A DNA stretch of 64,000 bases, from NCBI RefSeq assembly GCF_019393635.1, contig NC_057863.1:644401306-644465305 (forward strand). The letters run 5' to 3'. The DNA comes from Dromiciops gliroides (lineage: Eukaryota > Chordata > Mammalia > Microbiotheria > Microbiotheriidae). The first letter of the stretch is position 1; each line of letters opens with the position of its first letter. The notes beneath the pieces are model-generated. The model was not told the DNA's origin, made no database searches, and saw only the letters and a program-made list of their open reading frames with translations. The position numbers were made by a program, and so were the translations under genes. Positions 1,834-3,339 of the stretch are shown in pieces.

Positions 1834-2727
1834 GTGACTAATACAGCATCTCGAATCTGCTCGGGCTGTTCCACATGTCAGTCTTATAATCAGTATGCTT
1901 TTAAGGCCAAAGCTTATGGAGGGCGTCCCCTAGCATATACACCTTTTGAGCACTTACAAATTGATTATATTACTATGCCAAAAGCAGGACATTATAAATT
2001 TTGCCTTGTTATAGTTGATCAGCTCACTCGGTGGGTGGAGGCCTTTCCCAGCCCCCGAGCCACAGCTGCCTTTGTTGCCAAAATTCTTCTTAAAGAGATA
2101 GTACCTCGTTTTGGCCCACCAGCCCGCATCGATTCTGACAAAGGCACACATTTCACTGATTCGATTTTATCCCAAATCTACTCTTTCTTGGGAGTGACTC
2201 CAAAATTCCACACGCCCTACCATCCACAAAGTTCAGGCCAAGTTGAATGTATGAATAAAGAACTTAAGAGCATGATTGGCAAATTATGTACTGAAACCCA
2301 TTTGAAATGGCCTGATGTTCTACCATTGGCATTATTCTATCTACGAAGTAGACCAAGGGGAGAACTTCATATATCTCCTTATGAAATGCTTTTTGGTCAC
2401 CCTCCTATCCAAGCTAAAACTTTTCCCCCAGTTTATACATCACTGGTGGGAGGTGATACTTCTCTTGCCTCCTATATACAGGAATTACAGACCAGGCTAC
2501 GTGAACTCCATGAGGCAGGAGCTGTGGTCCAGGCAGGCCCATTAGACTTTTCATTGCATAACTTCAACCCAGGAGATAAAATATATGTAAAGAATTTTCA
2601 GAGAACCAGTGGAACCTAACCTGCCTGGGAAGGACCTTTTCAGGTATTATTGACAACTCCTACTGCCATTAAAATTGGTGAAAAAGACTCATGGATTCAT
2701 TGCTCTCATGTAAAGCCTGCACCATTC
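1834..2727 (+). pseudogene. Retroviral integrase (C-terminal part of pol) with one stop codon
   Basis: DNA-strand-transfer enzyme of the provirus. The second half of the zinc-binding domain is visible (CSGCSTCQ). The catalytic core keeps D,D35E: Asp at 1963-1965 (IDYI), Asp at 2137-2139 (DSDKGTHF) and Glu at 2245-2247 (GQVECMNKE), with exactly 35 residues between the last two. The C-terminal domain is readable across a TAA at 2617-2619 (PAWEGPFQVLL, then WIHCSHVKP). The codon at that place is probably a point mutation because the frame continues unchanged on both sides. The N-terminal His pair and all upstream pol domains are deleted. Inactive in this copy. Confidence 0.88.
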
Positions 2728-3339
2728 ATAGGTGAAGAGATTTCAGATAGACCTGAGGTAGACGCTAAAAAGCTAAAAACCCTAACGATAGCAACTGTTA
2801 AAGAGCAAAGAGAGTTCAGAGGAAATAGGCAGTTCCCATTTGATAATCCCACTGATCAGTTAAATGCTTTGGGACTCAGTCTTCGTAAAGTATCAGGAGA
2901 CGGAAATTGCCTTTTTAGGGCTTTAGCAGACCAGCTAGAAGGTCACTGTAGAAATCATCTCAGACACAGACAAGAAGCTGCTTCTTATATGATTAACCAT
3001 AGACAAGAGTTTGAGTCTTTTATAGTAAATGACTCCCCTTTTGAAGAATATGTTGATGAATTAAAGAAATTTGGAAAGTGGGGAGGAAATGATACAATTG
3101 TAGCATTTGCTAAGCAGCATCAGCTGAATGTTGTGGTTCATCAATTAAATCAGCCTTTATTGAAAATCAGTGGCACAGACAAAACTGATGCTAGAGAACT
3201 CCACATTTTCTACCATAAAGAACATTATGACAGCATTAGAAAGATCAATGACAATTCAGAAACCCCTGCCACTTTGGCTTGCAGAGAATTGGGGAACCAG
3301 TTAAAACAATGTGGCATACCCCAAACTCTAGCAGCTTAA
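2650..3339 (+). CDS. OTU-family deubiquitinase-like domain in frame after retroviral integrase (OTUD3-like)
   Basis: The frame that encodes the integrase C-terminus continues without shift through a linker of about 35 residues into an OTU cysteine-protease fold at about 2842-3258. The nucleophile motif is GDGNCLFRALADQLEG with Cys at 2908-2910, and the catalytic-His motif is KEHYDSI with His at 3223-3225. Between them are RNHLRHRQEAASYMI, FEEYVDELKKFGKWGGND and ELHIFYH. The order and wording are those of vertebrate OTUD3, a cellular deubiquitinase. After DNSETPA the sequence departs from OTUD3 and ends 24 codons later. There are no introns, which points to capture from spliced mRNA. It sits where env would be expected. 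Enzyme activity is predicted from the conserved Cys and His only; whether it was made as a Pol fusion or separately cannot be seen. Confidence 0.85.
   Translation: MTTPTAIKIGEKDSWIHCSHVKPAPFIGEEISDRPEVDAKKLKTLTIATVKEQREFRGNRQFPFDNPTDQLNALGLSLRKVSGDGNCLFRALADQLEGHCRNHLRHRQEAASYMINHRQEFESFIVNDSPFEEYVDELKKFGKWGGNDTIVAFAKQHQLNVVVHQLNQPLLKISGTDKTDARELHIFYHKEHYDSIRKINDNSETPATLACRELGNQLKQCGIPQTLAA

Follow-up and report, generated by a model that had tools for sequence, protein, structure and literature searches.

How does the OTU domain of a deubiquitinase come to stand in the reading frame of a retroviral integrase, and what might it do for the element that carries it? The question is raised by positions 1,834 to 3,339 of a 64,000-nucleotide stretch of the genome of the marsupial Dromiciops gliroides (GCF_019393635.1, contig NC_057863.1, 644,401,306 to 644,465,305, forward strand; the whole stretch is called the window here), which a first-pass annotation made from the letters alone described as an endogenous retrovirus (ERV) with an OTUD3-like domain fused to integrase. 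Window positions 919-5835 are a shortened gamma-like provirus, a damaged copy of a young, multi-copy lineage, and of the anatomy and history of this element, as set out below, we are nearly certain. The overall explanation that we favour, and consider moderately probable, is that a young, env-less gamma-like ERV lineage captured the OTU domain of OTUD3 long ago onto the C terminus of Pol, where it would protect the element's own proteins.

The integrase frame continues into an OTUD3-like domain

Two stop-to-stop frames of the window, 1792-2619 (275 amino acids, aa) and 2620-3339 (239 aa), lie in one phase with a TAA codon at 2617-2619 between them. Pfam finds the integrase core in the former (E 1e-15) and, in the latter, the C-terminal domain of murine leukaemia virus (MLV) integrase (residues 1-34, E 2e-11) followed by OTU (E 4e-14). 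The integrase frame had been read as running across this stop into OTU, and the phase is indeed unchanged up to 3339. The stop is where it was said to be, but integrase does not end there: its C-terminal domain extends as far as 2721 and is separated by a linker from the OTU homology proper at 2851-3276. The TAA itself is peculiar to the window copy, being found in 1 of 30 young loci of the same family.

The first-pass annotation had also judged the domain closer to a vertebrate OTUD3 than to viral OTU proteases, which agrees with the scores: the nearest solved structure is OTUD3 (4bou, E 4e-59, 203.6 bits), and the viral OTUs listed reach at most 27.4 bits. The predicted structure of the OTU piece (mean predicted local distance difference test score 72.7, with residues 41-180 at 77-92 in blocks of ten) fits 4bou at 1.3 A with a target-normalised template-modelling score of 0.93. 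The catalytic Cys (2908) and His (3223) reported as intact are confirmed by their codons, and the Asp at 2899-2901 is intact too. Taken together, nearest relative, predicted OTU fold and catalytic triad argue that the piece belongs to the OTUD3 subfamily. The C-terminal UBA region of OTUD3 is not in the element, homology ending at residue 196, and a genome search with the part of OTUD3 that follows the OTU domain returned the host gene only (4 places).

Copies of the fusion across the genome

The genome searched was the window's own (3.30 Gb), and counts of OTU pieces are of scored places, a lower bound with 150 of 2605 first-look candidates scored. The OTU piece is present at at least 150 places, all 98-100% identical, with no internal stop in 148. 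The open frame ending in OTU is exactly 1392 aa long at 51 of the 150 and at least 1380 aa at 54; at nine others it is exactly 330 aa, which suggests an amplified defective subfamily. In the 30 young loci fetched, the integrase C-terminal domain always adjoins OTU, and part or all of the remaining integrase is present in 29.

A second search, with koala OTUD3, listed 103 scored places from 19939 first-look candidates, and 96 of these were absent from the first list, so that the two queries combined place OTU at 246 sites on seven contigs. The 30 best koala-query loci represent older, more decayed lineages, with OTUs 63-75% identical to that of the window and a stop inside the OTU domain in eight. 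Here, too, the integrase C-terminal domain lies within 1.5 kb upstream in 28 of 30 (it is displaced in L034 and L038), and the junction thus recurs from locus to locus, which was the check proposed for a true fusion. Integrase at these loci is 78-90% identical to that of the window in 22 of 26 matches and 58-73% identical in the other four. All 30 young loci printed share the junction, which is readable in 26 of the 30 older loci, several of them disrupted upstream. A tail absent from OTUD3 follows the domain in young and older lineages alike (readable in 23 of 30 older rows), and parts of the 3' region, from 3340 onward, also occur in older copies. The catalytic Asp, Cys and His are each kept in 30 of 30 young loci; of the 30 older ones, 28 retain Asp, 28 retain Cys and all retain His.

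Origin of the OTU domain

The host OTUD3 gene is intact on the minus strand at C3:614,299,593-614,315,203, with eight exons matched. Its OTU domain is spread over four exons, the introns falling at codon 71, at codon 121 and between codons 158 and 159, all with GT/AG edges. Since all three introns are missing from the element's domain, the source was a spliced host mRNA, as the first-pass annotation had proposed. The pseudogene explanation that it held in reserve fails at this locus, where 3339 is followed by neither a tail nor a separate target duplication and no homology to OTUD3 extends past its residue 196. At the other end, homology begins at about residue 33 in older copies, whose linker still holds part of OTUD3: KEQRNRTE in 6 of 26 readable copies and close variants in the others, against AKERRNRTE in the host. 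The T of RNRTE is found in six marsupial OTUD3s (Monodelphis, Gracilinanus, Antechinus, Petaurus, koala and the window genome), is replaced by P in platypus and the three eutherians compared, and is kept in 19 of the 26 readable older copies; young copies have lost the stretch. Because this T is seen only among the marsupial OTUD3s compared and is retained in older copies, it points to a marsupial donor within the few species covered. Identity to the window-genome OTUD3 is highest in Petaurus (97.5%), followed by koala (96.8%), Antechinus (94.5%), Monodelphis (94.4%) and Gracilinanus (88%, a shorter record), and does not exceed 83% in the four non-marsupial OTUD3s compared.

In a protein tree of 27 cellular rows and 20 of 60 viral loci, the 20 sampled viral OTUs form one clade (support 100/100). 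It does not put that clade beside marsupial OTUD3 and gives it no firm place inside tetrapods: the approximately unbiased (AU) test rejected neither placement with marsupials (p 0.34) nor placement with amphibians and fish (p 0.53). Three OTU copies (L040, L041 and L046) take positions in the tree intermediate between the young copies and the bulk of the older ones (support 85/83 and 87/81). A single capture is likely, given the one viral clade, the shared junction and the shared tail that OTUD3 does not have.

Selection on the OTU domain

Ratios of nonsynonymous to synonymous divergence (dN/dS) were obtained as medians of Nei-Gojobori counts. Between the host gene and older copies, the OTU has dN 0.19 and dS 1.66, a ratio of 0.12; between young (5 of 30) and older (30) copies, dN is 0.19 and dS 0.84, a ratio of 0.23; between the host and young copies, dN is 0.25 with dS saturated. 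At the 16 older loci where integrase could be used as well, the young-older ratio of OTU is 0.22 and that of integrase 0.11. Among older copies, where the value includes post-insertion decay, it is 0.49 for OTU and 0.72 for integrase. The dN/dS check suggested at the outset therefore came out in favour of constraint (0.22-0.23 between lineages, 0.12 from host to older copies), and these values argue that selection has kept the OTU domain intact between lineages.

For comparison within the young family, 39 further OTU pieces were chosen by their non-coding 3' neighbour DNA, because picking copies by protein likeness would bias within-family tests; an earlier polymorphism ratio (pN/pS) of 0.25 among L001-L030, which had been selected by protein similarity, was discarded for this reason. 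Twenty-four of the 39 are full-length without indels (19 of these without a premature stop) and 15 have indels or align partially. The 24 give a pN/pS of 0.44 (bootstrap 0.37-0.57), which replaces the earlier value, with 50 nonsynonymous, 19 synonymous and 5 stop changes among singletons and 12, 10 and 0 among shared variants. Such a pattern would be expected if copies decay almost neutrally once inserted while those that still move are under constraint. The contrast among copies is weak, and the argument for constraint rests on the between-lineage ratios.

Layout of sister copies and the place of env

The layout of the element was assembled from pieces of three copies, each examined separately. 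The order in sister copies is long terminal repeat (LTR), gag, an in-phase UGA, protease, reverse transcriptase (RT), RNase H, integrase, OTU, about 1.7 kb without env, and LTR. In L108 the upstream part of the 1392-aa frame is open and matches Pfam retroviral protease, RT and RNase H. In L109 the LTR and primer-binding site are followed by a gag frame of 610 aa, which contains Gag_p30 and closes with TGA, and by frame coordinates the 1392-aa pol frame starts at the very next codon with the phase unchanged. Gag and pol in one frame with a stop between them is the gammaretroviral read-through arrangement. The LTRs of one sister copy with the 1392-aa frame, the only such pair compared, show no mismatches over 445 bases and one gap; this copy has an exact 4-base target duplication (GAAG), and its 3' LTR starts about 1.7 kb past OTU. 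The features of a class I (gamma-like) ERV are therefore present across the copies: paired LTRs, primer-binding site, polypurine tract, a 4-base target duplication (exact in the sister, three of four bases in the window), gag p30, protease, RT, RNase H and integrase with an MLV-type C terminus.

Env is a different matter. A genome search for gamma-type env (TLV_coat), with 78 of 399 first-look candidates scored, listed 79 matches, none within 10 kb of the 246 OTU places and the closest at 42 kb. Separate gamma-type env copies do exist in the genome, for example at G000:C4:173374611-173376500, and one has a 672-aa open frame; none is near the listed OTU places. The OTU element thus appears to be env-less, which would make it an ERV-derived retrotransposon rather than a complete provirus. 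The first-pass annotation was right that OTU stands in the position of env, where no env was found, but the family looks like an env-less retrotransposon and not an infectious virus.

Anatomy of the window copy

The features of the window copy are as follows.
919..922, no strand: GGAC, presumed 5' target-site duplication; three of four bases match its 3' partner GTAC at 5832-5835
923..1333, plus: 5' LTR (TGTAAT...TACACA), 33 bases shorter than the 3' LTR, by LTR comparison
1337..1354, plus: primer-binding site, tRNA-Arg-like, directly 3' of the 5' LTR
1461..1735, plus: gag N-terminal remnant; leader and gag start 96.5% identical in DNA over 452 bases to L109
1801..2616, plus: integrase, N terminus missing, catalytic core (Pfam rve, E 9.7e-16)
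2617..2619, plus: stop codon TAA inside the integrase C-terminal domain, from frame reading
2620..2721, plus: remainder of the integrase C-terminal domain MLVIN_C (Pfam, E 2e-11)
2722..2850, plus: linker between integrase and OTU; older copies retain an OTUD3 exon-1 stretch here
2851..3276, plus: OTUD3-derived OTU domain (Asp 2899-2901, Cys 2908-2910, His 3223-3225)
3277..3339, plus: non-OTUD3 tail (ACRELGNQLKQCGIPQTLAA) and stop, common to older lineages
3340..5387, plus: 3' region with no env and no long frames, ending in the purine tract AAAAGGGGGGAC and interrupted by a nested solo LTR
4568..4924, plus: solo LTR from a related family, nested in the 3' region and flanked by CTAA target duplications (4564-4567, 4925-4928)
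5388..5831, plus: 3' LTR, by LTR comparison
5832..5835, no strand: GTAC, presumed 3' target-site duplication, paired with GGAC at 919-922

The window LTRs differ by 6 mismatches over 408 aligned bases (Kimura two-parameter distance 0.0149, ends compared to 1331 and 5829). With a mammalian substitution rate of 2.2e-9 per site per year, a distance of 0.015 would make this copy some 3 Myr old. The primer-binding site region (1334-1375) is 100% identical to that of L109, and we take the site at 1337-1354 to match tRNA-Arg. The copy lacks the remaining gag, protease, RT and the N terminus of integrase, with a deletion junction near 1800. What is left of its integrase (1792-2721) is 80.6% identical over 310 aa to the Monodelphis gag-pol P0121.

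Within the 3' region no plus-strand frame longer than 83 aa lies wholly inside, and the six 3' frames hold no env domain, the one match there being a sub-threshold hit to an unrelated family (E 0.026). An Rfam scan gave no match at the gathering score. The OTUD3 3' untranslated region (UTR) was considered as the source of the 3' region (3340-4566 and 4931-5386) and rejected, as only chance matches of 16-17 bases were found to the host gene and 3.6 kb downstream of it.

Discussion

The familiar cases of host-gene capture by retroviruses are short-lived oncogene transductions and dUTPase. The element described here is of this known kind, and an integrase-OTU fusion is known, in the literature examined, only from DNA transposons. 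These are the Ginger1 elements, which have a GPY/F-type integrase-like transposase and, in some families, a C-terminal OTU (PMC2836005). The same layout is found here, MLVIN_C and OTU in one frame, as judged by domain matches. In contrast, Ginger1 elements are DNA transposons with terminal inverted repeats, reported with OTU from Hydra, Aplysia and pea aphid (PMC2836005), whereas the OTU element is bounded by LTRs, has gag and a vertebrate gamma-like Pol with RT, and carries an OTU of the OTUD3 clade. Because of these differences we take the two arrangements to be convergent, a judgement made by layout.

Among marsupial retroviruses, the MEGrv 1-3 clades (PMC11334065) and Monodelphis P0121 share the gamma-like Pol. 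However, the MEGrv clades carry env and, by term search, the main text of their description does not mention OTU (PMC11334065), and P0121 ends after integrase. MEBrv 3 of Dasyuridae is likewise an env-less marsupial ERV amplified by intracellular retrotransposition, but it is betaretrovirus-like, and the sections examined describe no captured deubiquitinase (PMC11334065). Cellular OTUD3 (4bou; PMC10566363) has the OTU fold, the catalytic triad and about 67% identity over the domain, but its gene is divided into eight exons, and it has a UBA region and an N terminus of its own; the elements keep only the part up to residue 196, starting at about residue 33 in older copies, fused to integrase. 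Nairovirus OTU proteases are viral OTU cysteine proteases as well; they are remote in sequence (at most 27.4 bits) and lie inside RNA-virus polymerase proteins.

The first-pass annotation knew of no marsupial retrovirus with this layout, and the titles and abstract openings listed in PMC likewise described no retrovirus or ERV with an OTU or OTUD3 domain; the search did not extend to subscription journals, Repbase or preprints. A term search of PMC9231498 found no mention of OTU. Protein searches gave no integrase-OTU fusion among the best 120 of 303 matches at 131-418 aa or the best 120 of 865 at about 230-730 aa, and at 563-1790 aa a single match, an opossum gag-pol without OTU. The matches listed are cellular OTUD3 or unnamed OTUD3-sized OTU proteins, a few with other automatic names; a highly similar fusion should have stood at the top of these lists. 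Viral contigs gave no confirmed match. The protein and viral-contig searches thus do not show the fusion in other species. Annotated proteomes usually mask repeats, however, so its absence from them says little.

What would the domain do? We propose that read-through of the gag UGA yields a minor Gag-Pol-OTU protein, as in gammaretroviruses, and that the predicted deubiquitinase would enter particles tethered to integrase. There it may strip ubiquitin in cis from Gag-Pol, integrase or the incoming integration complex, and perhaps also from host factors acting on the element's proteins, allowing intracellular retrotransposition to succeed. Loss of env would fit an element that lives entirely inside the cell and gains from such protection. 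HIV-1 integrase is reported to be short-lived and degraded by the ubiquitin-proteasome system (PMC6389893), and the authors of the Ginger1 study suggested a role in transposition for OTU or Ulp1 domains (PMC2836005). Because of this instability, and because Ginger1 elements also place OTU or Ulp1 behind a retroviral-type integrase, we tentatively rank protection of the element's own machinery above antagonism of innate immunity, as a role that we would give somewhat less than an even chance. A broader claim comes close to even without reaching it in our judgement: that this is the first known retroviral lineage with a deubiquitinase as an integral polyprotein domain, and that this captured OTUD3 domain, selected over the long term and joined to the integrase of an env-less marsupial element that is still mobile, is required in cis for retrotransposition.

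Several findings weigh against the explanation that we favour. The gag-stop-pol arrangement was read in a single copy (L109), and weak env relics could have been missed, since 78 of 399 env candidates were scored. Measured against the host gene, synonymous divergence is high in older copies (1.66) and saturated in young ones, and the viral clade does not stand beside marsupial OTUD3 in the tree. The OTU evolves about twice as fast as integrase (0.22 versus 0.11), which also fits changing host targets, and the contrast between shared and singleton variants (12:10 versus 50:19) is not significant (Fisher p 0.13).

The main rival explanation, close to a hypothesis of the first-pass annotation, is that the OTU mainly blunts innate sensing, for instance by taking K63 chains off RIG-I, MDA5 or MAVS, as is reported for cellular OTUD3. 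The OTUD3-like fold and catalytic residues would allow this, all three proteins are reported OTUD3 targets (PMC10566363), and a domain that evolves faster than integrase would suit an arms race. However, while cellular OTUD3 is reported to dampen signalling through MAVS, RIG-I and MDA5, it is also reported to enhance that through cGAS (PMC10566363). The latter would be harmful to a reverse-transcribing element, so that the sign of an immune effect on such an element is not obvious. In addition, the element seems env-less and intracellular, its OTU is fixed at the Pol C terminus of what is presumably a low-abundance read-through product, the UBA region of OTUD3 is gone, and a dN/dS of 0.22 does not show positive selection. 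On balance we consider a mainly innate function somewhat less probable than protection of the element's own machinery.

If the OTU were a passenger, acquired by chance and without a function visible to selection, this would account for the damage to many single copies (of 39, 15 carry indels or align in part and another 5 have a stop) and for a singleton ratio, 50:19, that is near neutral. Yet dN/dS is 0.12-0.23 between lineages and to the host gene, the catalytic residues are kept in both lineages despite OTUs only 63-75% identical, and the frame is open in many near-identical copies, which together make a passenger improbable. The same low OTU identity could instead reflect two or more independent captures by different ERV lineages, the more so as 22 of 26 older integrases are 78-90% identical to that of the window. 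This we regard as very improbable: all 20 viral rows fall in one clade (100/100), L040, L041 and L046 are intermediate, and the same junction peptide and the same tail foreign to OTUD3 occur in both lineages, the tail by itself nearly refuting the idea. One damaged locus alone, such as that in the window, might be taken for a processed pseudogene of OTUD3 that happened to land next to an ERV, or for an error of assembly; the 246 OTU places on seven contigs with the same junction in the fetched loci, the absence of a poly-A tail and of OTUD3 3' UTR (host gene and flank compared), and the intact OTUD3 gene elsewhere in the genome refute it.

At least two lineages have carried a host deubiquitinase domain in Pol, and a copy with identical LTRs carries it still. 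A Ginger1-type fusion of integrase and deubiquitinase is now found in a vertebrate retrovirus, apparently as an independent event. The suggestion drawn from Ginger1 that removal of ubiquitin or SUMO aids transposition (PMC2836005) becomes testable. The element also offers a natural setting in which to study how ubiquitin restricts retrotransposition, and to ask if gain of such a domain accompanies loss of env.

Other observations in the window

A cytochrome P450 exon (Pfam p450, E 5e-7) lies on the minus strand at 450-1049, just upstream of the oppositely oriented provirus. At 38676-40332 there is a very short element with 457-base LTRs (1 mismatch) of another LTR family and about 0.74 kb inside. 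Its interior is 90-94% identical to parts of the 3' region of the OTU element (4373-5386), a 3' region thus common to two LTR families, and the nested solo LTR is missing at the matching site. Positions 59287-59588 are 79% identical to part of the OTU-element LTR and are perhaps a solo LTR. Long repeats of 74-83% identity lie near 8.6-10.5, 38-42 and 53.6-55.6 kb, which suggests that sections of the region were duplicated in tandem.

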